Under the pieces are notes generated by a model. That model was not told the origin of the DNA. It searched no databases and saw nothing but the letters and a program-made list of their open reading frames with translations. Shown here one piece after another: positions 38,751 through 44,999 of a stretch of DNA of 44,999 bases. The stretch is from positions 1-44,999 of the forward strand of contig JAAWQS010000016.1 of NCBI GenBank assembly GCA_022800665.1, written 5' to 3'. How positions within the stretch are numbered: position 1 is the stretch's first letter; every line of letters begins with the position of its first letter. The DNA comes from Oscillospiraceae bacterium (GTDB lineage: Bacteria; Bacillota; Clostridia; Oscillospirales; Oscillospiraceae). The translations under genes and the position numbers were made by a program.

Positions 38751-39113
38751 ATGAAAAGGAAGATTTTGGTCGTTGATGACGATAACATGAATTTGGTGCG
38801 GACAAAGATGTTTTTAGGGCAGGAATACGAGGTGCTTTTGGCGGAATCCGGGATGGAAGCTCTGGGAAAGCTGAAGGATGAGAAGGTGGATATGGTTCTG
38901 CTGGACATCGACATGCCTGGGATGAACGGCATTGAGACCTTTGAGCGTATGAAAGAATTTGCCGCGGATATACCGGTGATTTTTTTAACGGCATCGGGTG
39001 CGGAGGACGATGTGGTCAGCGCCATCCGGCTGGGCGCAGTGAACTATCTGAAAAAGCCCTTCCGTATGCAGGAGCTGATGAAGCGGGTGGCCCAGGAGTT
39101 TGACGCCAAATGA
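38751..39113 (+). CDS. Single-domain response regulator
   Basis: 120 residues, a lone receiver domain without an output domain. It shows acidic residues 9-11 (VVDDD), the phospho-acceptor Asp52 in VLLDIDMPGMNG, the switch Thr/Ser in FLTASG and the Lys of YLKKPF. SD GGGAGG is 7 nt upstream. The stop overlaps the kinase start by 4 nt (ATGA), so both were translationally coupled. With the kinase destroyed, it has lost its obvious partner. Confidence 0.92.
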   Translation: MKRKILVVDDDNMNLVRTKMFLGQEYEVLLAESGMEALGKLKDEKVDMVLLDIDMPGMNGIETFERMKEFAADIPVIFLTASGAEDDVVSAIRLGAVNYLKKPFRMQELMKRVAQEFDAK

Positions 39114-40046
39114 GAGCGGAGGAGCAGACTGGCCGGCACCTGCTGCTGGCTGTTGTTACAATGCTGTTCAGCGGATTGCTGAGCGTGGTCACAGCGGTAC
39201 TGGGCTGGGAATTCTGGATGATTATACTGATGGCCGTGGGCTGCTGCAGCGTATGGGTCCTGCATATTGCCCGGATTGGCTCGGATTCCTTTTATGAGAA
39301 TCTGTCTGCCGGACTGCTCCTGACCGAATTCTTTTATTTCAGCGTGCATGAAACCAGCCTGTTTGACATCCCCGCTGTGGCCTGCATCCTGATTCTCGCG
39401 CTGTTTATGCTGAACAAAAAATGGATTCTCCATATGATTCTGTCCCTCTATGCGCTGGGACTGCTGTATCATACGCTGATCCTTCATACCATCTCCCGCC
39501 AGATGCAGCTCCAGGAGGTTTTTCACCTGGGGCTCGGCCTTGTTGTGACCATCAGCGGGGCTGCGCTTGCAAGATACTGGATCAACCGGCGGAATGTGCA
39601 GCGGAAATGGTATGAACGTATATTCAATGAACTAGAGACGGCGGGAAAGCAGAACGCCGTCTTTTTGTCGAACGTGTCCCATGAGCTCCGCACGCCCATC
39701 AATATGGTCATCGGCATCAGCGAGGTGGCTCTCGGAAGGGATCTCCCGCCGGAGATCCGGACGGATATGGCGTCCATCAAACTGGCGGGAAAGCGGCTGT
39801 CCACCCAGATCAATAACATGCTGGATTACACGGAGATCGTGGAGGGTACGCTGACCCCGGCCAAGAAGGAGTATATGATCACCTCGGTGCTCAACGACGT
39901 GATTACAATGACCGCCCTGCAGAGCAACCGGCAGCATCTGGAGCTGGTGTTTGACATTGACCCGAAGGTGCCGGCCCAGCTGATCGGGGACGCGGAGAAA
40001 ATTTCCCATGTTTTCAAAATCCTGCTGGAAAATTCCATTAAATTTA
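39110..40046 (+). pseudogene. Histidine kinase, 5' part (interrupted)
   Basis: Residues 1-312 of a membrane histidine kinase. About six hydrophobic segments fill residues 10-155. The HisKA box follows with His191 in FLSNVSHELRTPIN, then the start of the ATPase domain with the N-box ILLENSIKF. The next codons lie in the transposon: the frame goes on for 33 foreign codons to a stop at 40147. The host frame resumes at 44736 with TEEGGVNVRIGYR, so the gene was intact before insertion. The truncated protein keeps the His but has no ATP-binding lid and cannot phosphorylate itself. Confidence 0.93.
40039..40046. repeat. Target-site duplication, left copy
   Basis: TAAATTTA, repeated at 44728-44735. 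ATT-AAA-TTT here codes for the Ile-Lys-Phe of the kinase N-box. Confidence 0.88.
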
Positions 40047-40073
40047 GTCCCAATTCGACTTCGTGTTCCCGGT
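40047..40073 (+). repeat. Left terminal inverted repeat
   Basis: Starts GTCCCAATTCG and ends TTCGTGTTCCCGGT. It matches the complement of 44701-44727 in 24 of 27 positions. Confidence 0.88.
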
Positions 40074-40124
40074 TGAATCTATTGGATAAATATGTATCAC
40101 AGTTCAATAATCATACACTCGAAC

Positions 40125-40165
40125 AAAAAAGAGATTGCTCACCATAGGTGGACAGTCTCTTTTTT
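40125..40165 (+). terminator. Terminator inside the left end of the transposon
   Basis: AAAAAAGAGATTG (40125-40137) pairs with CAGTCTCTTTTTT (40153-40165) with one mismatch or G-U. It should stop transcription entering from the host kinase operon. Confidence 0.75.
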
Positions 40166-40375
40166 GTTTTTGGCAAAACAGATAATTAGATAATCCGATT
40201 TTTAGTCATTATTCCGAATTTCAAGAAATGAATTTAAGAAGGCAGAAAAGACCATCTAATCATGTTCTTATAAATTGACAATCATTGATCTTTTCAGATG
40301 GGCGGTCAAAAAATCTAACATATCATTGGTTGATTGAAGTACTCAACGTGGTATAGATACTCCTCCTATGTGGTG
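40166..40375. other. Transposon leader region without a gene
   Basis: About 210 bases of AT-rich sequence between the terminator and the nuclease gene. No clear open frame or promoter pair was found; it must hold the promoter for the nuclease gene. Confidence 0.45.
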
Positions 40376-40399
40376 TTGAACTTAAAAATACAAGTTCAA
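40376..40399. promoter_or_regulatory. Palindrome before the nuclease gene, possible operator
   Basis: TTGAACTT (40376-40383) and AAGTTCAA (40392-40399) form a perfect 8-bp inverted repeat with an 8-bp spacer, 23 nt before the ATG of the nuclease. Confidence 0.5.
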
Positions 40400-40422
40400 T
40401 ACATACTGTGGAGGCATACATC

Positions 40423-41100
40423 ATGTCAGAGAATATCATCAAAGAGGACATTATATTTAACAACTGTTATACAGGAACAGACTTCGAGAATAAAACACTT
40501 GACCTTCTTAGACTGGCGGGTTTCACCGCTAAAAAGATTGGTGGTGCCAATGATGGCGGCATTGACATCATAGCGAGCATGAATATTCAAGGAATTAAAT
40601 ATTCATATTGCATTCAATGCAAGTATCACAACAAGACATTAGCTAAGGCACCAGTTCAAGAGGCTTATACTGGAGCAGCGTTTTATGACAGTATTGGAAA
40701 GCCAGTTGTCATTACCAACAATAGTGTAACATTTAATGCTAGGTTATATGCCAAAAAGGTAGGTGTAGAAATTATTGCAGATTCTGAGTGGAATGAAATC
40801 AAGAAGGCTTGTATCTCCAAGAAAGCCCTAAAACAGCATACTGGTTTAATGGGAATAATCATTTCGAGCGCAATCAAGAATCCGGAATATGCCCGACACG
40901 CTATAGCAACAGAACAAGAGCATATTCCACCAGAATTAAGTGAAAAGGAAAAGTGCAGGCTACAACTTCAATCTGATTTTGACATGGCAGAGGAATATCT
41001 AAAGGAGGCAGAGCGTTTACAGCAAAAAGCCATGAAGAATCAAAGAATGGCATTTGAAAGACAGAAGAAAGCTATTTTAGCCAATCTTGACTATGGTTGA
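40423..41100 (+). CDS. Mrr-like PD-(D/E)XK restriction endonuclease
   Basis: 225 residues. The N-terminal ~115 residues have the Mrr-type nuclease pattern: Glu22 in TDFENKTLDLLRLAGF, then GGANDGGIDIIA (Asp48 of the active site) and YCIQCKYH (Gln65-x-Lys67), the D...QxK form seen in type IV enzymes that cut modified DNA. The C-terminus (EEYLKEAERLQQKAMKNQRMAFERQKKAIL) is a charged coiled coil, and residues about 150-165 look like a separate linker. No methyltransferase is encoded nearby. It could be a host- or phage-DNA defence gene or help the element itself; I cannot tell. SD GGAGG lies 8 nt before the ATG. Confidence 0.82.
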   Translation: MSENIIKEDIIFNNCYTGTDFENKTLDLLRLAGFTAKKIGGANDGGIDIIASMNIQGIKYSYCIQCKYHNKTLAKAPVQEAYTGAAFYDSIGKPVVITNNSVTFNARLYAKKVGVEIIADSEWNEIKKACISKKALKQHTGLMGIIISSAIKNPEYARHAIATEQEHIPPELSEKEKCRLQLQSDFDMAEEYLKEAERLQQKAMKNQRMAFERQKKAILANLDYG

Positions 41101-41154
41101 AGGGAACGCACCATAGATAGTGCAAACAATTTAATAAAGTTAGGAGGTTTTACC

Positions 41155-42345
41155 ATGTCCGACTTCTTCAACGAAGCGTTGAAGGGTGGCCTTGATAGTT
41201 TGACAGCTGACCAACTGGATGAACTAATAATCATGGCCCATGCAAAAAGGTCGGAAATTAGAGGAAAAAAGGAAATTAAAACATCAGATAGTTGTCCATT
41301 TTGTGGAAGTATCAGGATCAAAAAACATGGGAAATCAAGAAAAGGGACTCCAAGAAAAATTTGCAAGGATTGTGGAAAGACATTTTCTTTCGGAATTGAC
41401 ACTCTGGAACAAAACACACGCCTATCAGATACAAAACTTGCGGCTCTGTACGTAGGAATTGTAGAGAATCAAACGATTGCGAATCTTGCCCAAAAGATGA
41501 AAGTTAGCAGATCAACAGCGGCACAGCACAAATTAAAAATCATGGACATTCTTTATCAGAGAATGATGGCACAGCTAAGAGGAATAGACGATGATGGAAA
41601 CCCCATCTTCAAATTTGAGGGAGAGATACAATGTGATGAATGGTTCTGCACTGTATCATTCAAAGGAAAACGGGATCCAGAGTTTTTCATTTTTACATTG
41701 AAAAGGTTCCCACGACATAATTGCTCCTCGGAAGATCAAGATAAATATTTGAAAAAACACGATTTATGGAATAGGGTAATAGCCATTCCTGGCTATTTAG
41801 AGGAACTACGGGAAAACACTAAAAGATACAAACGGGGAATCAGCAATGAGCAAGCCTGCATTGTTGTAGCTGTAGATGATGAAAAGAACTTAATCGCAAA
41901 ACCTGTTTCTGTTGGCAGGTTAGAAACAGCTGATGCAAAGAAATTATTATCAGGACACTTTGACAATGGTAGTACACTCATTACGGATAGTCATTCAGCT
42001 TATCCAGTCTTAGCCAAGAGTGAAAAAATCAATCATGTCCAAATAAAAGCTGACAAGCACACCGAGGGCCGATATAATCTTGCATCTGTCAATGGAATTC
42101 ATTCGCAGATAGAAAAATTTATGCCAGAATCAGCAGAACGCATTCCAGCAACAAAGTATCTGAATCAATACATGGCCTTGTTTATATGGCAATGGTTACA
42201 TAAAGGTTTAACACTGGACGAGAAAGTTATTATGTTAAAACGCACCCTCGCAGACAGTTGGGATGATTACAAAGAATCCTATGAAAGCATTAAATCTCGT
42301 CCACTGGACATTAACACCAAGGGCCAATTCCCTAATGTAGTATAA
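41155..42345 (+). CDS. IS1595-family transposase
   Basis: 396 residues. The N-terminal zinc ribbon (Cys47, Cys50, Cys70, Cys73; SCPFCGS...KICKDCGKTF) and a helix-turn-helix (TIANLAQKMKVSRSTAAQHKL) are followed by the ISXO2-like DDE catalytic core: EIQCDEWF, LITDSHSAYPVL and NGIHSQIEKF. This order is typical for IS1595 proteins, which are 250-400 residues, so it is complete and probably active. The SD GGAGG lies 7 nt before the ATG. It ends with its own terminator at 42362-42391. Confidence 0.92.
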   Translation: MSDFFNEALKGGLDSLTADQLDELIIMAHAKRSEIRGKKEIKTSDSCPFCGSIRIKKHGKSRKGTPRKICKDCGKTFSFGIDTLEQNTRLSDTKLAALYVGIVENQTIANLAQKMKVSRSTAAQHKLKIMDILYQRMMAQLRGIDDDGNPIFKFEGEIQCDEWFCTVSFKGKRDPEFFIFTLKRFPRHNCSSEDQDKYLKKHDLWNRVIAIPGYLEELRENTKRYKRGISNEQACIVVAVDDEKNLIAKPVSVGRLETADAKKLLSGHFDNGSTLITDSHSAYPVLAKSEKINHVQIKADKHTEGRYNLASVNGIHSQIEKFMPESAERIPATKYLNQYMALFIWQWLHKGLTLDEKVIMLKRTLADSWDDYKESYESIKSRPLDINTKGQFPNVV

Positions 42346-42361
42346 TAACAATGATTTTGAA

Positions 42362-42391
42362 ATGGGTCAGACACTGTCCTGGCCCATTTTT
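42362..42391 (+). terminator. Terminator after the transposase
   Basis: ATGGGTCAG (42362-42370) pairs with CTGGCCCAT (42379-42387), followed by TTTTAA. It separates transposase and sigma-factor transcription. Confidence 0.78.
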
Positions 42392-42412
42392 AATGCTATC
42401 GTGTAGGCAGTA

Positions 42413-42421
42413 TGATATAAT
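42413..42421 (+). promoter_or_regulatory. Possible extended -10 promoter of the sigma/anti-sigma pair
   Basis: TGATATAAT (42413-42421), an extended -10 without a clear -35. An autoregulated promoter may also lie in the next 70 nt (TGTCAG...GTGTATAT), but I could not define one. Confidence 0.4.
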
Positions 42422-42495
42422 AAGAAAAAAATTTTTCAAAATAAGTGTCAGATTTTTGCTTAGAAATTGTGTATATAGGTGAAAGGAGGATTTGT

Positions 42496-43056
42496 ATGGA
42501 TGATAATGGCATAATCCAGCTCTATTGGGATAGGGATGATCAAGCCATAACAATAACATCCGATAAATACGGTCATTACTGCAAAGCCATAGCAAGGAAC
42601 ATATTGAATAGTGAAGAAGATGCAGAGGAATGTGTCAATGATACCTATCTAAACGCCTGGAAATCCATGCCAACCCATTGGCCTGAACAATTAGCAACAT
42701 TCCTCGGTAAAATCACACGGAACCTAGCTTTTAACAGGTACAAGCATAATCATACCGAAAAACGCGGCGGGGGCGAAATAGCACTTGTTTTAGATGAATT
42801 GACCGACTGTATATCGGATGTTGATGATGTAGAGCAAATCATTAACCGCCAAGAACTGATAAAGGCTATCAATTCATTTGTCAGAAGTCTTTCAGTAAAC
42901 AAGCGGAATTTGTTTGTACGACGCTATTGGTATGCAGATTCAATTTCAGCCATTGCAAATGACACTGGAATGTTGCAGGGAACCGTATCAAAGACATTAG
43001 GGCGGACAAGAAAAGAACTAAAAGCATATTTGACAGAAAGGGGCTTTGAGATATGA
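42496..43056 (+). CDS. Sigma-70-family (ECF-type) RNA polymerase sigma factor
   Basis: 186 residues with regions 2 and 4 only. Region 2 is at about 22-80 (HYCKAIARNILNSEEDAEECVNDTYLNAWKSMP), region 4 at about 130-180 (LFVRRYWYADSISAIANDTGMLQGTVSKTLGRTRKELK, a helix-turn-helix). SD GGAGG lies 6 nt before the ATG. It overlaps the next gene by 4 nt (ATGA), a typical sigma/anti-sigma arrangement. It should direct RNA polymerase to a small set of promoters, possibly its own and other cargo. Genes of this type are known in Clostridia; in a transposon they are unusual. Confidence 0.88.
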   Translation: MDDNGIIQLYWDRDDQAITITSDKYGHYCKAIARNILNSEEDAEECVNDTYLNAWKSMPTHWPEQLATFLGKITRNLAFNRYKHNHTEKRGGGEIALVLDELTDCISDVDDVEQIINRQELIKAINSFVRSLSVNKRNLFVRRYWYADSISAIANDTGMLQGTVSKTLGRTRKELKAYLTERGFEI

Positions 43057-44492
43057 GAAAAGAAGATTTCTTTGAAGTCCTTGGTGAACTTGACGACGAC
43101 ATCGTGAAAGGGGCTAAAACAACTATGAAGAAAGATAAGGACAAAAAGCCCATTTGGGCTAAGTGGGGAGCATTGGCTGCCTGTTTGGCTCTGATTGTAA
43201 GTCTGGCTGGCGGTACACTCATTGCCGAGGCCAAGGCATACAGTACAGCGGTAAAGTTTTTCGAGGTCAACGGCTTGTCCATGGAGGGCCTGAACCGATC
43301 AGACGTGAAAGCGGTCTACCGAGACATTACGACCAAGAGCTTTACAAATGATAAGACGGCCCAAGTGATGGAACGTTCGGTGCCGGGGATGGAGATTTCC
43401 CAGCGGGAGCCCACCCCGGAGGAACTGGCGGCACTGTGGGATTGGAATATGTGGCGCAACGCCCAGTCAAGGGCTGGGATCAGCTACCGCATCGATATTC
43501 AAGAAAAGATGGACGAGACACTGGGATTCGATGTGATGGACAAAAGCACCCTGGAATGCTATCGGGATGGAGAATTGCTCTGGACGGCGGAAATCCACGA
43601 TTTCCTTGCAGAAGGCAGCGTATTTACCGCTGACGGGACAGCAGTCTGGGGTCGCAATGACACCTGGTCCAGCGAACAGCCCACCTGTGCTTGGCTTGCT
43701 AGGATAGATATGAGCGGGGGCATTTTATGGCGGCAACAGATGGATCATGGCTTCAAGCACGAATATATATCCCATGTATTGGACAACAGGGATGGAACCT
43801 GGGCGGTTATCAGCCGGGGGGATTTGAGATACCTTTGTCTGAGCCAATACGACACCGACGGCAATGAGTTGTCCTTCCATAAAACCGAGGTGGGCAACCT
43901 GGGCATCTGGAACGCTGCCCGGTTGGGGGACGGCTACCTGGCCCAACTGGGGAACATCACGGACGGCGAGACTGACCGGCTGGTCAAACTGGACCGGGAG
44001 GGGAATCTGCTGGACAGCTTCCTCTACGAAGGGGAAGACTGCGACTACACCATCACCAACATGATCGAGTTTGGGGGCCGGGTGTACCTGTCGGCTTACG
44101 CCGTGCCCAAGCAGACAGACGGGGGCGGGCGGCATGAGATTGCCAATATCTTGGCCTACCTGTTTGACAACAACATTTGGGAGATTTCCAGCGAGGAATT
44201 GACCCCCATGGTGCGGGATAACTACACGGCGGTGCTACTTCTGTGCGACCCAGAAGGGGGAACACCAGAGATATTCTATTCTGTCAAAGGCTCTCTGGGC
44301 GGAAGATTGACCGTAAACGACACTGGAGAATTGGGGTGGGATGTGGAGAGCGTGGTGAGCACATTTTTTTCCCCAGCTACCAACTCCTTTACCATCGGCG
44401 GCACCTGTCAGGTATTCTGTTATACCTTTGATAATGCCGGAACTCTGCTTCGCCAAGAGGATACAGGCGAAACAGTACCATATCATAGATAG
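43053..44492 (+). CDS. Membrane-anchored anti-sigma / sensor protein
   Basis: 479 residues. The N-terminus (about 1-35, RKEDFFEVLGELDDDIVKGAK) is the cytoplasmic part likely to hold the sigma factor; one transmembrane helix lies at about 37-57 (KWGALAACLALIVSLAGGTLIAEA). The remaining ~420 residues are predicted extracellular, with blade-like repeats (LWTAEIHDFLAEGSVFTADGTAVW..., ILWRQQ..., RLVKLDREGNLLDSF) suggesting a beta-propeller. DNA composition changes abruptly at about 43220: the cytoplasmic and TM part is AT-rich like the sigma factor, the sensor part is GC-rich like the host. It looks assembled from two sources. Confidence 0.78.
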   Translation: MRKEDFFEVLGELDDDIVKGAKTTMKKDKDKKPIWAKWGALAACLALIVSLAGGTLIAEAKAYSTAVKFFEVNGLSMEGLNRSDVKAVYRDITTKSFTNDKTAQVMERSVPGMEISQREPTPEELAALWDWNMWRNAQSRAGISYRIDIQEKMDETLGFDVMDKSTLECYRDGELLWTAEIHDFLAEGSVFTADGTAVWGRNDTWSSEQPTCAWLARIDMSGGILWRQQMDHGFKHEYISHVLDNRDGTWAVISRGDLRYLCLSQYDTDGNELSFHKTEVGNLGIWNAARLGDGYLAQLGNITDGETDRLVKLDREGNLLDSFLYEGEDCDYTITNMIEFGGRVYLSAYAVPKQTDGGGRHEIANILAYLFDNNIWEISSEELTPMVRDNYTAVLLLCDPEGGTPEIFYSVKGSLGGRLTVNDTGELGWDVESVVSTFFSPATNSFTIGGTCQVFCYTFDNAGTLLRQEDTGETVPYHR

Positions 44493-44509
44493 CCCTAAGC
44501 CAATACTTT

Positions 44510-44544
44510 ATAGGGGCAGTCAAACTTGATTCGACTGCCCCTAT
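44510..44544 (+). terminator. Terminator after the anti-sigma gene
   Basis: ATAGGGGCAGTC (44510-44521) pairs with GACTGCCCCTAT (44533-44544), a perfect 12-bp stem with an 11-nt loop, followed by TTCT. Confidence 0.75.
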
Positions 44545-44700
44545 TTCTATGCCGACAGGCAGATGTAGATGAATTATGGTTTACGATGCTGACGTTTTTA
44601 TATGAGAATAATATAAGAATTGCACGCCCTACAGAAACAATCTAAAATTAGGTAGAATCGGCTAATTCAATGATTATACAGCAAAAATTTAGATTATATC
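44545..44700. other. Right non-coding end of the transposon
   Basis: About 155 bases of AT-rich sequence between the terminator and the right inverted repeat. No gene or further signal was found. Confidence 0.55.
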
Positions 44701-44727
44701 ACCGGGAACACGAAAGCGAATTGGGAT
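44701..44727 (-). repeat. Right terminal inverted repeat
   Basis: Complement starts ATCCCAATTCG and ends TTCGTGTTCCCGGT; see the left repeat at 40047-40073. Confidence 0.88.
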
Positions 44728-44735
44728 TAAATTTA
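44728..44735. repeat. Target-site duplication, right copy
   Basis: TAAATTTA, identical to 40039-40046. The match extends two bases further (ATTAAATTTA), so the true duplication is 8-10 bp. Confidence 0.88.
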
Positions 44736-44899
44736 CAGAAGAAGGGGGCGTAAACGTCCGGATCGGATACCGGTGGGAGAGCTACGGCATCAATCTGATT
44801 GTAGATATCTGCGATACCGGCATTGGCATGACGGACTCCCAGCTGGCGCAGATGTACGACGTCTTTTACCAGGCGGATTCCGGAAGCAGCCGCATTGCC
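44736..44899 (+). pseudogene. Histidine kinase, 3' fragment (interrupted)
   Basis: Continues the kinase read at 39110-40046 in the same frame: TEEGGVNVRIGYRWESYGINLIVDICDTGIGMTD, which has the G1 box of the ATPase domain (DTGIGM), followed by LAQMYDVFYQADSGSSRIAG (F box). The normal next motif, the Gly-rich G2 box (GGTGLGL), is missing: the sequence turns abruptly at about 44900, where a second insertion seems to begin. Confidence 0.85.
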
Positions 44900-44999
44900 G
44901 GGGCCCTCCGTAAAATCTTGTGTAAGCGAGATTCGACAAAGTCAAGTATGGTGCAGAGAAAACAGTACAGAATGTGGGCTGGAGCCCTTGCTGACACAT
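44900..44999. mobile_element. Left end of a second insertion, probably IS256-family
   Basis: Kinase coding similarity ends at GCCGGG, and the sequence continues GGGCCCTCCGTAAAATC TTGTGTAAGCGAG in the style of IS256-family end repeats (a GG-start followed by TCCGTAAAAT and GTGTAAG). The rest runs off the window, with no transposase seen. A different element type cannot be excluded. Confidence 0.5.

Follow-up and report, generated by a model that had tools for sequence, protein, structure and literature searches.

The window studied here, a stretch of 44,999 nucleotides from an Oscillospiraceae bacterium (contig JAAWQS010000016.1, positions 1 to 44,999), holds at 40047-44727 an intact transposon of the IS1595 family. 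It is about 4.7 kb long, and its four genes all lie on the plus strand: a gene for an Mrr-type nuclease, the transposase gene, and a pair encoding an extracytoplasmic function (ECF) sigma factor and a candidate membrane anti-sigma factor (Table 1). The original prediction, made from the letters of this DNA, of a complete IS1595-type transposon with passenger genes is borne out: the 27-nt terminal inverted repeats (TIRs) at 40047-40073 and 44701-44727 match at 24 of 27 positions, the element is flanked by the target-site duplication (TSD) TAAATTTA, and the transposase scores above the cut-offs of its family models. Counting the flanks, the inverted repeat arms span 40039-40073 and 44701-44735. 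A search of the 3.33-Mb genome with a degenerate pattern of the ends, tolerating up to two mismatches, gave three places, all of them without mismatch and two of them belonging to this element, against none for the controls. The element has moved to this position in the past, interrupting a sensor histidine kinase gene after ...ENSIKF; when the flanks are fused minus one repeat, the kinase frame reads ENSIKFTEEGG. The same stretch, ENS(I/T)KFTEEGG, runs uninterrupted through eight of the nine kinase orthologues fetched from the same genus, one of which has the ENSTKF variant, and L123 is the one orthologous locus without a match; the kinase query matched all 25 genomes of the genus, 15 of these through distant paralogues only. 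The exact empty site that the original prediction proposed to look for is therefore found among relatives, and its counter-case, in which the cargo is fixed at this site without any repeats, does not apply, since genus relatives have the empty site. Related elements elsewhere are flanked by 8-bp duplications of their own.

Table 1. Features of the transposon and its insertion site, in positions of the window
Feature	Positions	Strand	Basis or remark
5′ part of interrupted sensor histidine kinase gene	39110..40046	+	resumes at 44736
Left target duplication TAAATTTA	40039..40046	.	repeat search, flank comparison
Left TIR	40047..40073	+	24/27 to the right TIR
Hairpin just inside the left end	40122..40168	.	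core kept in L014, L016, L017, L018
Mrr_cat nuclease, 225 aa	40423..41100	+	PF04471 56.6 bits, cut-off 21
IS1595-family DDE transposase, 396 aa, Zn-ribbon	41155..42345	+	profile matches
Predicted ECF-type self-promoter TGTCAGATTTT-N11-TGTGTATATAG	42446..42478	+	sequence only
ECF sigma factor, 186 aa	42496..43056	+	TIGR02937 65.9, cut-off 42.9
Anti-sigma candidate, 479 aa, one transmembrane segment	43053..44492	+	start overlaps sigma stop
Anti-sigma N-terminal segment common to other copies	43053..43133	+	DNA similarity stops at 43133
Anti-sigma transmembrane segment and exchanged ectodomain	43134..44492	+	GC step, protein comparison
Hairpin 3′ of the anti-sigma gene, terminator-like	44510..44544	.	
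Right TIR	44701..44727	-	
Right target duplication TAAATTTA, 8 bp	44728..44735	.	

The transposase exceeds the cut-offs of NF033547 (86.2 against 75), PF12762 (34.1 against 27) and the zinc domain model NF050000 (39 against 28), and D161, D278 and the HSQIEK stretch, candidates for the IS1595 catalytic triad, are invariant in all four aligned rows. In the nuclease, a GID...QCK motif is invariant in seven of seven rows of an Mrr alignment, four of which are near-identical. Type IV restriction enzymes of the Mrr kind carry an N-terminal recognition domain, Mrr_N; neither this domain nor the TnsA Pfam domains are among the three Pfam matches of the nuclease at E up to 1. A profile search of solved structures returned only 1y88 for it (E 7e-4), and its fold prediction, with a predicted local distance difference test score (pLDDT) of 52.8, was too poor for use. 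For the sigma factor, TIGR02937 and Sigma70_r2 are above their cut-offs and Sigma70_r4_2 is below (14.3 versus 25.7).

Scanning genome contigs yielded 22 pattern matches, six of which are relatives of the element: L014 (Oscillibacter sp. 1-3), L016 (Flintibacter muris), L015 and L017 (records titled Clostridia bacterium), L018 (Lachnospiraceae bacterium) and L019 (a Peptococcaceae metagenome-assembled genome). Several of these record names presumably point to mouse-gut collections. All six carry the nuclease, the transposase, the sigma factor and the start of the anti-sigma gene, each whole or in part: L015 lacks the left end, where its contig starts, the transposase of L017 is shortened, an internal deletion in L018 spans the nuclease and transposase genes, and L019 is degraded. 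Further copies with the same cargo, which the original prediction had suggested seeking, thus exist, and the opposite possibility it had raised, that these ends always stand without the cargo elsewhere, fails in six of six copies and holds in part for two distant elements (L101 and L140, below) that have the same ends and lack the sigma pair. In the aligned pieces L015 to L018 are 98.0-99.85% identical to L014; they come from several genera and occupy at least three sites. The duplication TTTTAGAA flanks both L014 and L016, which represent one shared site, as these loci, element included, are 98.2% identical over 8.4 kb; the duplications are ATAATAAA at L017 and TTTTTCAA at L018. Counting the window's own transposase, which was each time the only full-length close one, matches were obtained in 7 of 150 genomes of the family (E 0.001), 8 of 394 of the order (1e-20) and 4 of 391 of the class (1e-25); the element is rare in the genomes sampled.

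Some remnants and settings of copies were also seen. A solitary right end (114 bp at 90%) in the element's own genome, at C181:18696-18828 (L002, L091), is the relic of a second copy. Some 26 bp beyond the end of the L018 copy (L018, 3484-4709) lies a gene for a MobA/VirD2-type relaxase, and the copy may therefore be carried by a mobilizable element. At L092 (404-1238, genome G117), a deletion has left a relic made up of a left end and the last 24 transposase codons, behind which lies an acetyltransferase-like gene; another genome of that genus, G020, has a gene that looks similar by eye ahead of a sigma gene whose product is 77% identical to that of the element.

The nuclease, transposase and sigma genes are under purifying selection. 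Between the window and L014 the ratio of nonsynonymous to synonymous substitution rates (dN/dS) is 0.097, 0.065 and 0.124 for these genes, respectively, and across comparisons with the other copies it ranges over 0.064-0.124. The synonymous rate (dS) itself is 1.43 for the nuclease, 1.00 for the transposase and 0.35 for the sigma factor, and this lower value suggests that the right part of the element has a more recent shared history than the left. In steps of 200 bases, DNA identity to L014 runs at 67-88% up to 42047 and at 87-93% from there to 43046, and similarity ends after 43133, that is, inside the anti-sigma gene.

That gene is a chimera, in which the sigma-side end has stayed with the sigma factor of the element and the outer domain has been exchanged. 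Its product has a single hydrophobic stretch at residues 33-60. Window and L014 share 169 of 186 sigma residues and 27 of the first 32 anti-sigma residues, and their ectodomains give no BLAST match. Compared with the chromosomal operon L084, the sigma factor of the window is identical at 86 of 184 positions (47%) and anti-sigma residues 1-32 at 4 of 32, and the window's ectodomain is 75% identical over 413 aa to the anti-sigma factor of that operon; the ectodomain of L014 is in turn 60% identical over 159 aa to the chromosomal protein L089. The ectodomain part of the gene in the window has a GC content of 0.54 and a third-codon-position GC (GC3) of 0.66, against 0.38-0.40 and 0.36-0.38 for the nuclease, transposase and sigma genes. 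A matching inner end joined to differing ectodomains means that the inner end stays with the sigma factor while the outer part is swapped. The degraded L019, cut by a contig end, begins a further outer sequence whose likeness to both types stops by about residue 60. Among 200 genomes of the family, 37 of the 44 matches listed for the window's anti-sigma protein cover the N-terminal part only, five (the window included) reach the C-terminus and two lie elsewhere, so that variable ectodomains look usual in this anti-sigma family.

In the copies of the element the motif TGTCAGATTTT-N11-TGTGTATATAG stands directly ahead of the ribosome site of the sigma gene (the listed instance of L019 is cut). 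Close variants precede the sigma genes of the chromosomal relatives L021, L022, L023 and L036 and, as found by a scan, L089. A matrix built from five chromosomal sites, L089 and four among the 29 chromosomal rows, which were chosen by eye and exclude that of the window, gives 29.5 bits at 42446; the second-best independent site within the element has 11.1 and the best of 50 shuffles 16.9. The predicted self-promoter of the sigma gene is well supported on sequence grounds. Ahead of the nuclease and transposase genes, the matrix found no site above shuffle level, and a general sigma-70 scan returned 12 sites against 10.4 expected. Control of movement by this sigma factor is therefore unsupported, and the proposal in the original prediction that the switch drives movement or the nuclease is not upheld, the one strong promoter being that upstream of the sigma gene.

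More distant elements show what is constant and what varies. L101, from another family of the same order, has the same ends, the duplication AAAATGAA, a nuclease 44% identical to that of the window, and DUF3781 in the slot behind the transposase, which is itself frame-broken and 64% identical over its larger piece. L140, from the same class, again has these ends, with the duplication AAATATAA; an N-terminal remnant of the nuclease adjoins the transposase, which is shortened, and the slot holds an XRE-type regulator and a 77-aa protein. Neither carries the sigma pair. At L107 and L143, in other families, the nuclease lies directly ahead of the transposase in decayed form, and a TIR of this element's type was not found at L107. 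A one-frame fusion of nuclease and transposase at L107 was rejected as functional evidence, because the frame is broken downstream and a deletion best explains the fusion. Nuclease and transposase together look like the older core of these elements, and the slot behind the transposase looks exchangeable. Other IS1595 elements have inverted repeats and 8-bp duplications but no Mrr gene: L103 (a transposase and, on the opposite strand, a 90-aa frame), L142 (transposase and a 209-aa protein) and L141. At L105 repeats enclose a transposase and a hydrolase-like gene, and L102 and L104, being at contig ends, are uninformative. L141 (G655:C91, 2081-4948) is a complete element in which the transposase is followed by an ECF sigma factor and a protein with one transmembrane segment, between TIRs and the duplication TTTAACTA. 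Its sigma factor is 29% identical over 83 aa to that of the window and its transposase 31.5% over 365 aa; one of six family genomes checked has this type of element, namely that of L141 itself. As this transposase is roughly as distant as the sigma factor, the sigma pairs of L141 and the window may descend from one old capture with later losses, but as L101, L140, L142 and L103 are without the pair, two separate captures look likelier. L108 (4683-6244) has an IS1595 transposase and, behind it, a nucleotidyltransferase of aminoglycoside/lincosamide-resistance type.

The reading that we regard as probable is that the element is a passenger-carrying IS1595 transposon (a transporter IS, tIS) with an Mrr-transposase core and a slot now occupied by a self-regulated sigma/anti-sigma switch, the ectodomain of which has been swapped by recombination. 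The chimeric gene, the core and the exchangeable slot go beyond the original prediction. Going by what is known of the protein families, the anti-sigma factor would sit in the membrane and hold the sigma factor through its short cytoplasmic N-terminus; an encounter of the ectodomain with its signal would release the sigma factor, which would then fire its own promoter, so that both proteins rise. Recombination would keep sigma factor and sigma-side segment joined and bring in an ectodomain of chromosomal type, and such replacement suggests that the element moves a sensing module between Clostridia and re-tunes it, presumably to the benefit of the host. As far as promoters tell, transposition would lie outside the control of this sigma factor.

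Several points weigh against this reading. The anti-sigma assignment comes from position (the ATGA overlap with the sigma gene), the one transmembrane segment and the conserved N-terminus; no family model scores above cut-off for this protein, its fold prediction (pLDDT 42.7) is unusable, and a profile search of solved structures gave no match below E 0.22. Full ectodomain types in elements with this sigma factor number two only, and a close donor for the ectodomain was not found, the best DNA match being 76%. As to the promoter, most of the 29 chromosomal rows are without a plain motif, and the matrix sites were picked by eye. Across the whole genome the only site without mismatch is the sigma factor's own at 42446; one site with two mismatches (C176:23352) and three with three mismatches, against three control matches, yielded no output gene, and the switch may therefore do little.

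The Mrr nuclease could also be a partner in transposition rather than cargo, cutting the strand left by the transposase or processing the ends in the manner of TnsA. This seems to us possible rather than probable. Its gene stands directly 5′ of the transposase gene in the window, in L014 to L019 (whole or partial), L101, L107, L140 (as a remnant) and L143, and this position is constant while the cargo of L101 and L140 differs. The intact GID...QCK motif, the dN/dS of 0.10 and the lack of a recognition domain match fit such a role, and so does the finding that the best four of 11 Mrr matches in 394 genomes of the order adjoin an IS1595 transposase, the seven weaker ones having none in their 1.5-kb flanks. 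L141, L142 and L103, however, have moved without the nuclease, as their TIRs and duplications tell, so that it is not needed by the IS1595 family at large. The protein has no TnsA family match, the L107 fusion in its decayed copy looks like a deletion, and against the L107 and L143 transposases that of the Mrr-less L141 gives higher scores than that of the window, so that nuclease and transposase may have come together or parted repeatedly. A bolder proposal, which we hold to be doubtful, would make IS1595 in Clostridia a two-part machine, in which an Mrr partner evolved independently of TnsA is combined with a slot that shuffles sensing cassettes at the membrane boundary and so spreads new extracellular-sensing specificities.

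We think it unlikely that the nuclease is a restriction gene kept for host benefit or against competitors, as in defence against phages or plasmids. Its Mrr_cat domain and PADLOC matches to ZorD (5e-11), a type IV mREase (7e-9), PDC-S02 and LmuA would suit this role, but those matches are confined to a nuclease-domain part of proteins that are larger, a recognition domain gave no match, and the nuclease goes with the transposase. Zero relatives of the nuclease at E 1e-5 in 50,697 phage and 72,556 plasmid records weigh neither for nor against defence. Plasmid IS1595 transposases were found in 33 records, every one below 60% identity, and in viral contigs none of the pattern matches (three for the transposase, 57 for the Mrr alignment, five for the L141 transposase) was confirmed. 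It is improbable that the sigma pair is a selfish, addiction-like maintenance module whose loss leaves a harmful free sigma factor: a self-promoter with no other clear target and the presence of a sigma pair in a second IS1595 element, L141, would agree with it, but the idea is purely inferential and sensing fits the exchange of ectodomains better. Most improbable of all is that the pair controls transposition or the nuclease, since, although it lies in the same element and on the same strand as those genes and stress-coupled transposition is a known idea, it stands downstream of both and neither is preceded by a promoter site exceeding the shuffles.

Other features of the locus concern transcription and the kinase gene. 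The hairpin close to the left end might block transcription from outside the element; neither it nor the hairpin behind the anti-sigma gene is in the terminator scan's list. The left-end hairpin recurs without TIRs (22 of 23 core positions) in genome G027 (L088, 3784-3824; also L021), where a chromosomal sigma promoter follows after about 40 bp. Beyond SSRIAG, at 44909-44999 of the window, where the contig ends, the kinase frame no longer follows its orthologues. The probable cause is another insertion into this kinase gene, with an apparent IS256-type end.

Related ECF sigma factors occur in 53 of 61 genomes searched of this bacterial family. Their neighbours are proteins in which the inner end is conserved and the outer domain varies. 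A transposon carrying a swapped outer domain on a fixed sigma factor and segment provides a concrete vehicle, and a testable route, by which such repertoires might diversify. The steady pairing of Mrr nuclease and transposase raises a second question, namely whether, beyond Tn7 and its relatives, a DDE transposase has acquired a nuclease.

In Tn7, the restriction-endonuclease-type nuclease TnsA is paired with the DDE transposase TnsB. The element described here resembles this by analogy in having a nuclease and a DDE transposase, here as adjacent genes alone, and it differs in that the nuclease has no TnsA domain match, the transposase is of another family, and nuclease-free relatives exist. 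It resembles the chromosomal operons L084, L087, L088 and L089 in having a sigma gene followed by an overlapping or adjacent gene for a one-transmembrane protein with variable ectodomain; L087 to L089 are further alike in promoter type and partly in the anti-sigma N-terminus. Unlike the element, these operons show no TIRs and no such transposase in the 8.5-9 kb fetched. L141 shares the IS1595 transposase, ECF sigma factor, one-transmembrane protein, TIRs and duplication, and differs in being Mrr-less. The ISNha5 group of IS1595 likewise comprises large, passenger-bearing elements. Seven groups of IS1595 are distinguished in the literature, ISNha5 being among those named (PMC8101967). MTnSag1 (tISSag10) and tISCpe8 are passenger-carrying IS1595-family elements (tIS) of 1.7-2.0 kb with a lincosamide-resistance gene, 25-bp TIRs, 8-bp direct repeats and AT-rich targets, and MTnSag1 forms a circular intermediate in E. 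coli (PMC5704250). The element in the window is like them in its IS1595 DDE transposase, 8-bp repeats, TIRs and possession of passengers, but in place of a single resistance gene it has a nuclease ahead of the transposase and a two-gene switch behind it, in 4.7 kb. In the passages drawn on from that source a sigma-70 gene appears only in the table row of another element (PMC5704250), and in those from a further one IS1595 and Mrr are mentioned apart (PMC4537262). No account of a sigma passenger or a linked Mrr gene in IS1595 was found among the papers listed in the literature search, a weak negative as most subscription journals lie outside it. Passenger-carrying IS1595 elements are thus already established, and a sigma switch together with a linked Mrr nuclease seems to be new among them.

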